A DNA stretch of 64,000 nucleotides, taken from NCBI GenBank assembly GCA_900291925.1, contig UWYS01000003.1:1-64000 (forward strand), read 5' to 3'. A program made the position numbers and the translations under genes. The notes under the pieces are model-generated. The model was given only the letters and a program-made list of their open reading frames with translations, was not told the origin of the DNA and did no database searches. This stretch comes from Thecaphora thlaspeos (taxonomy: Eukaryota; Basidiomycota; Ustilaginomycetes; Urocystidales; Glomosporiaceae). Positions 17,795 through 41,464 of this stretch are shown here, one piece after another. The number at the start of each line of letters is the position of its first letter. Positions within the stretch are counted from its first letter, which is position 1.

Positions 17795-19968
17795 ATGACC
17801 GCGACCGACCCGCAGACCTACACAGGTCCTTCCCCTGTCGCTGAGCTTAGGACGGAGCAGCAGTCTCCTCAGCACGACGACATGAACAGCTACGATGACG
17901 ACGAGGACAACAAGGAGAAGGCCGCTTTCGATACTGAGGCCACGACCGAGGCTCACATGACCACTGTCAAGCTCAATCAGGCCATCGGCAACGTCGACAC
18001 CGAGTCGGAGGAGTACAAGGTTCGGGAGAAGCGCCTCGTCCGTCGGATCGATCTCCAGCTCTTGGGCCCTCTAGTCCTGACGTACATCTGTAACTACATC
18101 GATAGGAACAACATCACGACGGAAATGGTGAGCTTCAGCTGGTTCCCAAGGTGGTTGCGAAGGTATAGAAGGTGGCGAGGAGATGGTTTGGTGGCGAGAA
18201 GGATGGCGAGCGCGGAGATTCCGCGCGGGGGAAAAAAAATCAGAAAAAAAAATGTGCTGTCCAAGAGCGCATACGCACGGACGCTGACGCCCCACCTCGT
18301 CCCTGCGCCTTATTCATGCTTCATCGACGACAAGACAATGGCTTCATCCGCGACCTCAACCTCACTAGCACACAGTACGCCACCTGCCTCTCGCTCCTCT
18401 ATGTCGGCTACATTTCGCTCCAGGTGAGTTTTTGTCGACGTCAGGACCTTGGCGGGGCGGGGCCGCGACCCTACCGTCCCCGTCTCGACTTTTCCACCGT
18501 CGCTCCTCGCTTCTGTGGCCCTCCTCCTGACTTCCCATCGTTCTCGCGCTTGTGGACCTCTTCAACTCCTCAGATCCCTTCCAACATCTTTATGACCAAG
18601 ATCGGCCGGCCCTCGCTCTACATTCCGGCCTGCGTGGCCGGCTGGGGCGCAGTCTCGGCGTGCACCGCCGCCTGCACAACGTTCGAGCAGGTAGCCGCAG
18701 TACGAGTCATCCTCGGCATGGTCGAGGCCTGCTTCTTTCCGGGCGCCCTCCTCCTCCTCTCGTGCTGGTACAAGAAGAGCGAACTCGCCACTCGCTCCGC
18801 CTTACTCTTTAGCGGATCGATCCTCTCCAACGCCTTCTCCGGTCTCATCAGTGCAGGCATCTTGAACAACATGGAAAACGTCGCAAACCTCAAGGCGTGG
18901 CAGTGGCTCTTCGTCCTCGAGGGCGCCATTACTGTGGCAATCGCGATCGCCGCCGTATTCATCCTTCCGGATTTCCCTCACAACTCGAAGTCTTTCAGCA
19001 TGGAAGACCGCGAATTCCTCGTCCGCCGCATGGCCCTGAACGCCGGTGAGTCGGACGTGCCCAGCGAGAGCGGCGGAGCGATCGAAGGCCTCGTCCTCTG
19101 CTTCAAGGACACGAAGGTCTGGACGCTTGCCTTCATGCTCACCACGGCGACCATTGGACTCGGCTTCAACCAATACATGCCGACGTTGACGCGCACCCTC
19201 TTCGACGAGAAGGTCAAGTCGCTCCTCATCACGGTCCCGATCTGGTTCTTTTCCTTTGTCATCTGCCTGCTCAACGGTATCCACTCGGACCGAAAGAAGG
19301 AGAGGACGTGGCACATTATTGGACCTCTTGTGAGTATTCGCTCGGCCTCGGCGTCGCGCATCGCATAACGGCCCCACCTCCTGACACCGTGACTGACCTT
19401 GTACCCTCCCATTTCTGTCTCTTCCTTCGTCTACCGGCATCGCTCCTAACTTCCACAGGCCGTCGGCTTCATCGGCTTCATCATCTCTACCGCAACCGCC
19501 AAGCTGGGCGCTCGATTCTTTGCCCTCTTCATCGAGGCGAGCTCGTACGCCGGATACACTTGCATTCTCGGCTGGATCGCGCCGTCGGTCCCTCGACCTT
19601 CGTACAAGCGAGCGATTTCGATCGCCTTCATCAACGCCTTCAGCCAGCTCGGCAACATCAGCGCCTCGTATGCCTGGTCAGCAAAGTGGAAGACGAGCTC
19701 GCCTTCCTACTGGCAGTCGAACGTCATCTCCCTCTCCATGTTTGTGGCTTGCATCCTGCTGGTGCTGTTCCACAGGCTAATGCTGCAGAGGGAGAACAGG
19801 AGGCTCGACATGGTGCGCGGCGTGGTTGGCACGCCGGCCGCCGGCGAGCAGGGCGAGGCAAAGTTCCCCGTCATCGACGACGAGGAAGTCGAAGGTGTCG
19901 CGGCGCAGCAGAATATCTCGATGCAGCAGGCTATGATGGCCAGGGCAAACTTTAGGTACATGCTTTAA
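17795..19968 (+). CDS. MFS transporter, Dal5/Tna1-like anion:cation symporter family
   Basis: Four exons; the three 3' ones read cleanly: exon 2 to 18423, exon 3 18574-19329, exon 4 19459-19968. Exon 1 (17795-18127) ends VLTYICNYIDRNNITTEM before GTGAGC. The product is about 560 aa with about 12 membrane segments. A hydrophilic, acidic N terminus of about 80 residues precedes TM1 (QLLGPLVLTYICNYIDRNN). LSLLYVGYISLQ|IPSNIFMTKIGRPS then gives the family's signature second helix and loop. The family moves organic anions such as allantoate, nicotinate or pantothenate; the substrate cannot be told. Odd point: no acceptor for intron 1 joins exon 1 (phase 0) to the NGFIRDLNLTSTQYA frame near 18,330 in phase. 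CAAG at 18,327 is off by one. A one-base error, a missed micro-exon or an unusual donor may exist. Confidence 0.88.
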
Positions 19969-20996: not shown

Positions 20997-23900
20997 TTAG
21001 TTCGCTCTGAGTCGCGTGCTAGCAGGGAGAGAAGCGACGAGTTCGCTACCGTCCTCGGCATAGTAACAGCTGAAAAGACACTCTCCCTCTCTCTCCCTCT
21101 CGCTCGGGAGGAAAGGCGTACAGGGGACAGACGAAGCCGGCTGGATAGACGAACGCATACTCTTCCTATCTGCCGATCCGTGGGCGTCGCGTGAACCGGC
21201 ATGGTAGGAGATGGGTCTGGGACCTGAGGTCGAACGGCGACTGGTCGACGACAGAGGGACGGAGGTCGACATGCTAGGAGATCGCGAGATGGATGCGCTG
21301 CGTTGGCGCGAGGTCGCGCCGACGGTCGAAACGGTGTCGATCTTCTTGAACGTATAGAGGAAGGCGACAAAGCGGTTGTAAAGCTCCTTGGTGCGAGATG
21401 AAGAGTCGTGGCACAAGGAGGGATGACTGATCGACGCCCTCCTTGCCGTCTTGGTGGTAGGCGTCGGTGCCGCAGCGGGGACGGCGTCCAGGGGCGCAAA
21501 ACTGATGGCCGTCCCGGCTTTACGCATCGAGTCGGTAGCAGGCTGAGCTGGACGTTTCGCAGCACGCTGCTGACGCAACTTGTGCGATCTCGCCTCGCAT
21601 CGTTCCTCGACAAGCGACTTGGCCTTGAGGCGCGGCGAAGAAGGCGGCGCAGACGACGGGGCCGTCCAGTCGCTTTCGCCGGACGCGTCGGAAAAGGCGC
21701 TGGGACTGTTGAGCATCGGCGAGCCGTGAGGGTCATCGTGTCCTATCTCGGGCGTCCTCACTTGTCGGATGGGCAGCAGCTCCGGCCGGCTGCATGGTAC
21801 ACGCACTACCGCCTCGGTGGCCGGGACGTCGCCGAGGCTGTCGAACGAGGCCAGCTCCTCCTCGTCGTGGCGCACGACGGCGGCAGCGTCGTGCGGCTGA
21901 CTGTTCCAGTCGGCGGTCTCGTACCTCCGGTGCAGCGCGAAGCGCTTCGGCGTAGCCTCGGGAACCAGCTTGCGCACAAATGCGGTGCAGCGCGTGCGGA
22001 AGCGCTGGCCGCGGTGCAGGTGGAAGAAGTCGAACGTCATCTGGTCCAGCTCGAGCTTGCGGAAGGTTTGGAAATGCTGGCGCAGCGTCGCCGGTGTCGT
22101 GGCGCCGCCGCTGCCCGCGACCCCGCCCTTGGCCATCCTGCCGGCAAAGAGGTAGGCAAGGTACTTGGCTTTGTTGGTTACGAGCCTGTCAACGAGCGGA
22201 CGATTGTCGACGGCTTCGCCTACGACGGGCAGCAGCGCCTTTGTCCACGGTGCGCCGCTGGAGAGGAGGCCGGTAGGGTCGCGCGCGACGTCGCACACCT
22301 TGGCGGTGACGAGGCGTTGGACAACCGACTTGATCTCGTCGACGACGGCTTGAGCGCCAAGGTGTCCCCGCTCAAGGACGTGGTCGACGAGCCCGAACGA
22401 CTTGGCCTCGGCCGTGCTGATGGGGAGCATCTCGCGCGCGAGGCGCGACGCCACCTTGGCGCCGCACCGCTGTGTCCAGCTGTAGGTATGCCACTCGGAG
22501 CCGTACAGCCCGAGGCCGCGATAATGCGGGTTGTGCACGGCCTGTTCGATCGAGAGCACCACGTCGGCGGCCGTCGCGACCGCCAGACCGCCCGCGGCCG
22601 CATTGCCGCGCATTGCCGAGACGGTGAGGACGCCGGCGGGCGCGAGCAGCGCCTCGACGCAGTCGTCGATCGCATTGATGTTGGCCCAGCCCTCGGCGGC
22701 CAGGTCGGACGAGCCCTCGATGACGTTGAGGGCGATGCCGTTGGAAAAGTAGCCGGTCCCGCCCATCATGACGATGGCCTTGAGCCCGGGCTGCGCGAGC
22801 GTCCAGCGGATCGCCTCGAGCAGCACCTCGCACTGGAGCGTCGAAAAGGCGCCGTTGTAAAACTCGGCGTATACGTAGGCCACCATCGCCCCTTCTCCGA
22901 GCCACTCGAGCTCTACGTAGACCTGCTGGTAGGTCCCGCTACGGCGGCGCCAGGGGAAGACTGGGTCGGCGCCGAAGCCCGTGGTGACGCTCCACTCCTC
23001 GACGCGGTCCAGCAGGCCAAGTCTGTGCGCCAGCTCCGGCATCGAGAGCAGGCCCATGACGGCGGGCAGCTTGGGATGGAGCTGGTGATCCTTCTTGGCC
23101 TTGGGGCATCGGACGTGGCAGATCCAGATCGGCAGGTCGCTACCGACCGTGACGAGGACCGCGCCTTCGCGCGTCGCCAGGACGGTGCCGACGGGTCCCT
23201 CGCGCGCCAGGGCGGCGAGCGTCGCGGGGAGCGGATCGCGCTGGACGACGACGCCGTAGACGAAGAGCGGCTTCCCAAACAGGCTCGTCAGCACACCCGG
23301 CTGCGAGTCGGCCGAGTTGATCCGCTGGACAATGACATCGGCGCTGATCGGCGCCGCGACGGCACGGTCGGCAAAGAGGAAGTCGCGCATCGACGCCTTG
23401 AGCAGCGGCCTCTCGTGCGTCTTGCCGCCGAGAAACGGCTGTCCTCGCGAGACGCACTCGACGCCGGCGTTGGCGGGCGCCGACAGTGAGGGAGGGTATC
23501 GGTTGCCGGTAGCCGCTTCCGCTTTGGTGGTGGTGGCCGCCGCCACCGCCTGGATCCGATCTAGGGCGGCTAGCACGCCGCTGAGGGCGCAACGTGTGAC
23601 GGGACCACGGTAGAGGTCGCTCTTGGTCATGCGTCTCGTCTCTGGATCGAGCTCAAACTGGTCAAACGCCCAGATCGGACCGGCGTCGAGCGCCTCGATG
23701 GCCTGAAGCACGGTGACGCCCCAGTGCGAACGCATCGCAAAGCTGCCGCGCGCAGCGGCCGCGGGGTCGGCGTGTCGCGCGTCGATGAGGGCTAGCTGCG
23801 CCTCGGCCGAGGGGAGCTCGCCCGTGTCTCCGAGCAGGCACCAGTCGATGGCCGAAGGGCCGGCGTCGCCTGGGGGGCCCGGGTGGACGATGAGCGTGAG

Positions 23901-24232
23901 CCAGCGCGTGTAGACCTCCTTTGGGACGCGTTTTGTGAGAAAGGGGCAGACGACGACGTCGGGAGCCGCGAGCTCTGCGGCTGAGATCATCAGCTGCGAC
24001 GTGAGGGCGAGCTCGATGGTGACTGCATGGCCCTGGGACCTCAGCACGAGCGCCAACCGCTGTTGCCAGGAGAGGGATGGAATGGAAACGATGACGTGCG
24101 ACGAAGATGAAACAACAAGAGGTCAGCTTGTCGTCTGGCAAGTCGACAGCGACTATGATGGACCAGCCGAAGGGAGAAGCCACGAACCTGTGAGAGCGAG
24201 TTGAAGGCTGTACAAATAAAGAGGATCTTCAT
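20997..24232 (-). CDS. HypX-like formyltransferase / enoyl-CoA hydratase fusion
   Basis: Two exons (24232-24188 and 24059-20997; 128-bp intron), 1035 aa. The joined N terminus MKILFICTAFNSLSQ|RLALVLRSQGHAV has the HypX opening. Domain 1 (about 1-300) is formyl-THF transferase-like: LIVHPGPPGDAGPSAIDW with His74, then HWGVTVLQAIEALDAGPIWA with Asp140. Domain 2 (about 400-620) is crotonase-like: MMGGTGYFSNGIALNVIEG, WANINAIDDCVEALL, SAMRGNAAAGGLAVATAADV and NPHYRGLGLYGSEWHTY. A helical region follows (LRQHFQTFRKLELDQMTFDF), then about 270 low-complexity Ser/Arg residues absent from bacterial HypX (about 550-600 aa). Bacterial HypX forms the CO ligand of [NiFe]-hydrogenase from formyl-THF via formyl-CoA. 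No hydrogenase gene lies here. The fungal role is unknown to me; CO or formyl-CoA production is inference. Confidence 0.85.
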
Positions 24233-39851: not shown

Positions 39852-41464
39852 TTAGATGGGCGCCGGCTGCGAGAGGTTGCAGTGCACCGCCTTGACGTTG
39901 GTATAGTTCGTGAGAGCGTACTCGCCAAGCTCGCGTCCGATCCCCGAGGCTTTGTAGCCGCCAAAGGGAACCTGCGCCTCGAGCTGGTTGTAGCAGTTGA
40001 CCCAGACCGTGCCCGCCTTGAGCTTGTGTGCCGTCTCAAGGGCGCGCGAGACGTCGCGCGTGAACACGGCCGCCGCGAGGCCGTACATTGTGTCATTGGC
40101 GATGCGGATCAGCTCCTTCTCGTCCTTGAACTTGGACACGACGACCACGGGCCCAAAGATCTCCTCGCGCGCAATCTTCGAGTTGGGGTCGGCGTCGGTG
40201 AAGATGGTGGGCTCGATAAAGTAGCCCTCGTTGCCCTTGCGAGCACCGCCGAGATACAGGTTGGCCTCCTTCTTGCCGAGCTCGATGTACTCCATGATCC
40301 GGTCGTACTGCAGCTGCGAGACCTGCGGGCCCTGGAACGTCGTCTGCTCGAAGGGGTCGCCGACCGAGAGACTCTTGCAGATCGCCGTCATCTTGGTCAT
40401 GAACTCGTCATAAATGGCCTTTTCGACGTAGACGCGCGAGCCAGCGCAGCACGTCTGGCCGTGGTTGAACATGATTCCGAACACGGCCCACCTGGCCGCC
40501 TGATCCAGGTCGGCGTCCTTGAAAATGACGTTGGGCGACTTGCCGCCGAGCTCGAGCGTGACCTTCTTGAGGTTGGTCGAGGCGGCCGCCTTCATAATGT
40601 TGCGGCCGACGAGCGTCGATCCGGTGAAGGCAATCTTGTCGATGTCCATGTGGTTCGAGATCGCAGCGCCCGCGACGGCACCGAAGCCCGAGACGACGTT
40701 GACCACGCCCGGCGGGAAGCCGGCCTCAACGATCAACTCGCACAGCTTGAAGGCCGACAGCGGCGTCTGCTCGGCCGTCTTGAGCACAACCGTGTTACCC
40801 GTCGCGAGCGCCGGGCCGATCTTCCAGGCGAGCATGAGCAGGGGGAAGTTCCAGGGGATGATCTGACCACAGACGCCGATGGGTTCGTGGCGCGTGTAGG
40901 TGAACTTGGTGTCGTTGACCTCAATCGTCTTGCCGTGGTTCTTGTCGGCCCAGCCGCCGTAGTAGCGGAGGTTGGCGGCGACGTTGGTGACGTCAGCGCC
41001 CTTGGCAATCGAAAAGGCCTTACCGTTGTCGAGCGCCTCGAGCGAGGCGAGGACGTCGAGGTTGGCCTCGACGAGGTCAGCGAGCTTGAGGAGGAGCCTG
41101 CCTCGCTCGTAGCCAGGGACTGCGGCGTGCGAGGGCGGGGAAGGGGGAGGGACACGGGAGGCGATGTGGGTCAGCAAGTCGTTCCGAGCGAGAGAAAAAG
41201 GTGTGCGACGTCGACGGAGCGTGCACGGGCCAATTCACCTTTCTCGCCCCACGAGTTCTCGAACGCCTCGCGGGCGGCCTTTACGGCGACGTCAATGTCC
41301 TTGGCCGAGGCCTCTGCAACCTGGCCGATCTCCTTGCCGGTCGAAGGGTTGACGGTGGCAAACGTCTTTCCATCGAGGGCAGGGACAAACTTGTTGTTGA
41401 TGAAGAGGTCCGACTGGACGGTCGTCTTGATGCCGTTGGGGAAGCTAAGCTCGAGCTTGGGCAT
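39852..41464 (-). CDS. NAD(P)+-dependent aldehyde dehydrogenase
   Basis: Two coding exons (41464-41239, 41119-39852), 497 aa, the normal length of class 1/2 [24 protein letters not shown] gives a cytosolic-type start with no clear presequence. Key elements: [17 protein letters not shown] (catalytic-site Asn), [11 protein letters not shown] (coenzyme loop), [12 protein letters not shown] (general base Glu, about 265), [15 protein letters not shown] (nucleophile Cys, about 299) and [12 protein letters not shown]. The final [19 protein letters not shown] is typical of fungal ALDH1/Ald5-like enzymes. It oxidises aliphatic aldehydes such as acetaldehyde to acids. A sequence reading CAACTACCAG|GTGAGT near 41,682-41,691 suggests a 5' UTR intron ending just before the ATG. 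Confidence 0.93.

Follow-up and report, generated by a model that had tools for sequence, protein, structure and literature searches.

Known HypX/HoxX proteins include those of Aquifex aeolicus and Ralstonia (Cupriavidus), which supply the carbon monoxide (CO) of an O2-tolerant [NiFe] hydrogenase. According to a passage in a review, CO formation by HypX through formyl-coenzyme A (formyl-CoA) was described by the Lenz group (PMC12134894). For Aquifex HypX, the section of Muraki et al. used here assigns His74, Asp80 and Asp109 to formyl transfer and Tyr416 and Glu426 to decarbonylation, all termed putative, and states that the equivalents of this Tyr and Glu are required in Ralstonia HypX (PMC6802093). 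The MHYT protein CoxC, in turn, is characterized in an excerpt as responding to CO, with copper needed and O2 competing (PMC11347149). In the literature searched, which lies mostly outside subscription journals, the one role given to HypX was to provide CO for [NiFe] hydrogenase, and neither a study of a fungal HypX/HoxX enzyme nor a paper treating HypX and MHYT together was among the matches listed; two candidate sources were set aside, as the 'hypX' named in a passage of PMC4374905 is an unrelated tyrosine-cluster gene and PMC5491491, in the part seen by us, gives a bare citation. Here we describe a HypX-like gene in a 64,000-nucleotide stretch of the Thecaphora thlaspeos genome (contig UWYS01000003.1, positions 1 to 64,000; hereafter the window).

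In our preferred reading, to which we give somewhat less than an even chance, the product of this gene is a CO synthase of the HypX type that works in two steps; its CO would be a signal read by an MHYT sensor, and its conserved C-terminal Cys-Tyr-Tyr (CYY) tail would be a control or docking element. Taken separately, formation of CO by the fungal enzyme is likely, and a link of MHYT to fungal HypX is plausible while falling short of probable. The N-terminal domain would transfer the formyl group of 10-formyl-tetrahydrofolate (10-formyl-THF) onto a tightly held CoA, and the crotonase-like domain would split the formyl-CoA into CO and CoA. This CO would act as an internal gas signal and not for [NiFe] hydrogenase, and its reader would most likely be an MHYT sensor in the membrane that depends on copper and whose gene lies at another place in the fungal genome. 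We know of no test of HypX-MHYT CO signalling in any organism.

A HypX homologue in Thecaphora

The gene lies on the minus strand (window 20997-24232) and comprises two exons encoding 1035 residues; the coordinates and strand given in a preliminary description, made from the DNA letters, are correct. It is the single HypX copy found by searching the genome that holds the window (20.6 Mb in 32 contigs, with hypX on contig C3). The product shows the domain order of HypX, a formyl-transferase-like part followed by a crotonase-like domain, the first of which was detected by alignment to HypX and not at Pfam cut-offs (Formyl_trans_N left only a trace at E 0.029); no NCBIfam family, among the best 25 of 44, exceeded its own cut-off. 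Among solved structures the best match was Aquifex HypX (phmmer E 3e-72; E 3e-143 with a fungal profile), which is far beyond chance and bears out the two HypX domains proposed earlier.

The model of the window protein, which does not include the first 16 residues, had a mean predicted local distance difference test score (pLDDT) of 78, with 585 of 1019 residues scoring at least 90. When it was compared with solved structures, ranks 1 to 8 were all HypX (E 3e-41 to 5e-38; template modelling (TM) score by target 0.86-0.88, with 0.88 for 6J0P), so that the overall HypX fold is predicted, and at rank 9 the E value fell to 1.5e-11. A Verticillium relative (P0112) was modelled at pLDDT 89.9 and reached a TM score by target of 0.92 to a HypX structure. 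With HypX at the first eight ranks and such a drop behind them, an identity as an FMT/ArnA protein or as a stand-alone enoyl-CoA hydratase was rejected, and the assignment to HypX over these families, made in the preliminary description, is upheld. By sequence and modelled fold, the window protein is a full HypX homologue, and likely a working HypX-type enzyme.

Conservation of catalytic and CoA-contacting residues

The window protein was aligned with 120 relatives among the matches listed, giving 121 fungal-type rows, and with 80 bacterial HypX, which were the best 80 of at least 516 relatives in one scan. The 120 relatives are fungi wherever named, and the set also holds unnamed rows and one, P0071, that comes from a collection of eukaryote transcripts. 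At the proposed transferase site the window protein carries His74, Asp80 and Asp140, and at the proposed decarbonylation site Tyr528 and Glu537; each of the five residues is conserved in 120 of the 121 fungal-type rows, the remaining row being gapped. The His74 and Asp140 that had been singled out beforehand align with His74 and Asp109 of Aquifex, and none of the proposed catalytic residues is substituted in the window protein. Five CoA contacts are likewise retained (Q15, R166, S267, Q268 and N417, corresponding to Aquifex Q15, R131, S194, Q195 and N306). Two others are replaced, R542 by K712 and R9 by A9, and the same replacements occur in 67 and 46 of the 80 bacterial rows, respectively; R448 near the CoA channel is replaced by Met at a position that varies among bacterial HypX too.

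A separate observation concerns bacteria. Eight of the 80 bacterial HypX, all Bacteroidota by record titles, have Thr at the position of Tyr416 (NPHT for NPHY; L010, L013, L018, L022, L026, L068, L074 and L080) and a HypD match in the same loci, a hint that this Tyr is no absolute requirement or that these enzymes work otherwise.

Conservation of the residues for the first half-reaction would also suit an enzyme from which the cell draws formyl-CoA, formate or free THF, i.e. a one-carbon valve or a supply of formyl-CoA with little or no CO, and CoA-transferase III family matches at two places in the Thecaphora genome (substrates not assigned) would agree with it. We consider this unlikely, since the equivalents of Tyr416 and Glu426 are kept as strictly as the transferase residues and since THF recycling may already be provided by a protein of this genome that carries ACT and formyl-transferase domains, an architecture which we take to be that of 10-formyl-THF deformylase. 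The same genome also holds, on contig C21, a 1465-residue frame (L089, 21-4418) with a formyl-transferase domain as its sole Pfam match (best stretch 1090-1171).

Descent of the fungal proteins

Over the core, the closest proteins among the matches listed were one of Pseudozyma flocculosa at 80% and one of Thecaphora frezii at 76%, both labelled uncharacterized or hypothetical, which puts the bearer of the gene among the smuts and their kin, and fungal rows of the same list include the names 'hydrogenase maturation factor hoxX' and 'sensor protein hoxX'. Two trees were built, one of 98 rows (18 of the 121 fungal and all 80 bacterial) and a more careful one of 56 rows (17 fungal and 39 of the 80 bacterial, with the long-branch row L066 left out). 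In both of them the fungal rows stood on one side of a single branch with full support. Within the fungal group ascomycete and basidiomycete rows are separate, the unity of the basidiomycetes being weakly supported (88/46), and this split fits a single old acquisition of HypX in fungi. A bacterial donor was not found, the nearest row in the 98-row tree being L066.

The stem of the fungal group is long (1.12 changes per column in the careful tree), as might be expected if the crotonase domain of the fungal proteins had taken up another CoA reaction and their resemblance to HypX reflected ancestry and not function; the replacements of R9 by Ala and of R448 by Met near the CoA channel point the same way, except that both positions vary in bacteria too. 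With all five catalytic residues and most CoA contacts kept (the equivalents of Q15, R131, S194, Q195 and N306), we regard such a change of reaction as very improbable.

The C-terminal tail

The HRR pattern was present in 116 of the 120 listed relatives, and 23 to 477 residues follow it; the tails are longest in named smuts, intermediate in Rhizoctonia and rusts, and mostly about 80-125 residues in ascomycetes. An acidic pattern stands immediately behind HRR in 109 of the 121 rows. Among the 114 tails that exceed 40 residues, 112 have CYY near the other end, at a distance of 2-37 residues from the C terminus (mean 0.13 and maximum 2 after shuffling), and the fuller form [LIV][FWYM][SPA]CYY occurs in 81 of the 114. 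CYY was found in none of the 80 bacterial HypX. Two more rows lacking the HRR pattern have CYY near their end, and P0028 and P0104 do not. In the models of both the window protein and P0112, the fourth residue ahead of the Cys forms a one-residue strand bridge, and SCYY makes a helical turn. The block around CYY has pLDDT 70 in the window protein, where most of the linker scores about 30, and CYY lies below 50 in P0112, so that the two models differ as regards a possible docking of the tail on the core. The extension is a lineage-variable linker with a conserved end. This corrects the fungal-specific extension of about 270 residues put forward earlier, as it is 308 residues long beyond HRR in the window protein and far from uniform among relatives.

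Hydrogenase markers in the Thecaphora genome

Six-frame searches of the genome, made exon by exon, found neither the NiFe large subunit (PF00374) nor HypD (PF01924), with control families matching in the same search; they did not extend to other hyp families. A [NiFe] hydrogenase with a HypCD scaffold for HypX to serve was thus not detected by these two families. Since neither was found, a [NiFe] hydrogenase is an unlikely user of the fungal CO, and a role outside hydrogenase maturation is what we would naturally infer, in support of the non-hydrogenase role assumed in the preliminary description. That description had left three functions open (CO signalling, supply of formyl-CoA, and disposal of formate or one-carbon units), among which some bacterial gene neighbourhoods would favour CO signalling, as far as neighbourhoods allow such an inference.

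In a different use of the same product, CO would bind to or modulate some other metalloprotein, for instance in a cofactor of the iron-carbonyl type or at the haem/copper sites of respiration, and would not be an MHYT signal. The catalytic residues are intact, the conserved CYY tail could dock on a client protein, and known HypX provides a CO ligand, as stated in the cited part of PMC12134894. On the other hand, HypD, part of the scaffold that builds Fe(CN)2CO, has no match in the genome. We also know of no alternative client protein for CO from fungal HypX, which counts against this explanation as well, and on balance we hold it to be improbable.

MHYT genes beside bacterial HypX and in fungi

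The proposal that MHYT reads the CO comes from gene neighbourhoods. In six methanotroph loci (L016, L023, L024, L025, L039 and L051) HypX is followed first by a gene of 282-297 amino acids and next by an MHYT-PAS-histidine kinase, downstream of which are a response regulator and a hybrid kinase (assigned through Pfam in L024, through clustering elsewhere). The MHYT protein of Nocardia terrae (L048), with 268 residues and no other Pfam domain, begins 22 bases past the HypX stop codon. A search of 201 genomes of its family, drawn from a larger group, gave HypX in 14, of which nine were close (71-100% identity) and five divergent (40-43%). In 9/9 of the close orthologues the MHYT gene adjoins HypX on the same strand (fetched stretches of 6.8-17 kb, with Pfam matches in the same places); the upstream genes vary and some downstream genes are common, while the HypX-MHYT pair is constant. 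The nine are kin and were counted as one lineage. Their genomes have 6-10 MHYT repeat matches each, corresponding to roughly two to four genes, and with so few copies adjacency by chance looks unlikely. Of the 14 Nocardia-family HypX rows, 13 retain all five catalytic residues. A divergent HypX-like frame, L103 (genome G055), has Tyr and Ala at the positions of His74 and Asp109 and one in-frame TGA.

Hydrogenase markers are missing around some of these genes. None of HypD, HypE and the large subunit was found in the fetched stretches of the 14 Nocardia-family HypX. At the level of whole assemblies, which may be incomplete, four of the nine close genomes (G133, G178, G072 and G208) have neither a large-subunit nor a HypD match, G046 has a weak large-subunit match without HypD, and the other four have HypD. 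The large subunit had no match in 4 of 15 HypX genomes searched (those of L009, L011, L040 and L043), and at 28 of the 80 bacterial loci, several of them on short contigs, the DNA fetched gave no match to HypD, HypE or the large subunit.

The Thecaphora genome has one MHYT gene, a 1211-residue frame without other Pfam domains. MHYT relatives among the matches listed came from smuts, rusts, Cryptococcus and kin, Pezizomycotina and Gigaspora. By a hand count among the matches listed, 21 of the 29 basidiomycete species named for HypX are also named for MHYT. A survey of receptors in Aspergillus fumigatus includes, in the section cited, an 'MHYT domain signaling protein' (PMC3576715).

Several observations weigh against CO signalling through MHYT. 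In the fungus the two genes are unlinked, MHYT on contig C12 and hypX on contig C3, and the MHYT protein has no recognised output domain. Among the matches listed, MHYT also occurs in several fungi not named for HypX (such as Meira, Exobasidium and Cryptococcus), and MHYT may sense O2 or NO (nitric oxide) instead. A passage in the Taphrina genome paper confines MHYT kinases to Taphrina and a few Pezizomycotina (PMC4007546). A partial heme-oxygenase match in the Thecaphora genome offers a rival source of CO. Among bacteria, HypD, HypE or the large subunit is matched in the DNA fetched for 52 of the 80 HypX loci, and MHYT in that for only 7. MHYT is beside none of the five divergent Nocardia-family HypX, was not found near HypX in two other Nocardia loci (L054 and L070), and gave no match anywhere in one Moritella and one Shewanella genome bearing HypX. 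The methanotroph genomes carry the NiFe large subunit elsewhere in 6/6 cases and HypD in 5/6, so that their HypX could still serve hydrogenase; a hydrogenase-free status of these MHYT-linked methanotrophs was accordingly rejected.

Because the two genes are neighbours in two bacterial lineages, some members of which are without detected hydrogenase, and because both occur in fungi, CO as a signal read by MHYT is our best guess. The more general proposal, that HypX and MHYT form an endogenous CO maker-sensor couple in bacteria and fungi, independent of hydrogenase, with the fungal enzyme gated or docked via its CYY tail, is more tentative, and we think it less likely than not. If these readings are true, intact HypX in fungi and in some bacterial genomes without a detected hydrogenase would extend the dedicated synthesis of CO from folate, which needs no haem, beyond hydrogenase maturation, and the bacterial HypX-MHYT neighbours would be a simple system for asking whether cells make CO as a signal. 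Fungal CO biology would gain a testable source besides heme oxygenase, which together with CO is linked with heat stress in Ganoderma in the part of PMC9659044 cited here.

Two other types of bacterial neighbourhood were observed. In the marine gammaproteobacterial loci L029, L043 and L040, HypX is beside or near methyl-accepting chemotaxis proteins (the gene in L029 via clustering only). In L042 (1-9352), an unusual neighbourhood, HypX is followed by genes for a small ferredoxin-like, a sarcosine-oxidase-alpha-like and a glycine-oxidase-like protein and then by selD and mnmH; a cyanide-plus-CO set (HcnABC) was rejected for this locus, as the NCBIfam matches are sarcosine- and glycine-oxidase-like, lie below cut-offs and are followed by selD and mnmH.

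Gene structure and features of the window

The coordinates are collected in Table 1. The N terminus joined over the predicted splice aligns with the uninterrupted N terminus of relatives including P0001 and P0002, which bears out the spliced N terminus of the preliminary description. Scanning the window against Rfam brought no match.

Table 1. Positions of the HypX-like gene, its predicted parts and two other genes in the window
Feature	Window position	Strand	Remark
Exon 1, residues 1-15 (MKILFICTAFNSLSQ), 15 codons	24188..24232	-	contiguous with the rest in P0001 and P0002
Intron, 128 nucleotides, GT...AG, predicted	24060..24187	-	
Exon 2, residues 16-1035 and stop codon TAA (20999-20997)	20997..24059	-	
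N-terminal Rossmann part of formyl-transferase domain, about residues 1-180	23565..24232	-	from Aquifex HypX alignment; boundary approximate; span includes intron
Formyl_trans_C match, residues 254-337	23094..23345	-	E 9e-4, just under Pfam cut-off; backed by HypX alignment
Crotonase-like domain, ECH_1, residues 428-587	22344..22823	-	Pfam E 1.5e-15
His74 codon	23883..23885	-	Aquifex His74
Asp80 codon	23865..23867	-	Aquifex Asp80
Asp140 codon	23685..23687	-	Aquifex Asp109
Tyr528 codon	22521..22523	-	Aquifex Tyr416
Glu537 codon	22494..22496	-	Aquifex Glu426
Acidic motif DEEELASF, residues 747-754	21843..21866	-	shortly after HRR; pattern in 109/121 rows
Near-terminal CYY, residues 1013-1015	21060..21068	-	in ECLFSCYYAED
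Major facilitator superfamily (MFS) transporter exon	18169..19368	+	convergent with HypX gene
Aldehyde dehydrogenase family gene	39852..41234	-	

Comparison with known systems

With the Aquifex and Ralstonia HypX/HoxX the fungal protein shares the domain order, the modelled fold, the majority of CoA contacts and the five residues proposed for catalysis. It differs from them in its acidic motif and CYY tail, in its separate group in the trees and in its genome, where the two hydrogenase markers have no match; the 'hoxX' names of fungal database entries imply a hydrogenase role that this genome does not support. The loop from the catalytic Tyr to the Glu is one residue shorter than in Aquifex, as it is in many bacterial HypX. 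CoxC, an MHYT-LytTR regulator of Afipia carboxidovorans, has an MHYT domain like those of the fungal protein and the bacterial partner proteins, whereas it controls genes that oxidize CO as a substrate, and HypX has 0 occurrences in that paper (PMC11347149). The bacterial HypX-MHYT pairs are adjacent or two genes apart, in contrast to the unlinked genes of the fungus, and their partners are of different types, the N. terrae protein having no Pfam domain besides MHYT and the methanotroph proteins being kinases. Common to the bacteria with these pairs and to the fungus is that HypX retains all five residues and that the genome also carries MHYT.
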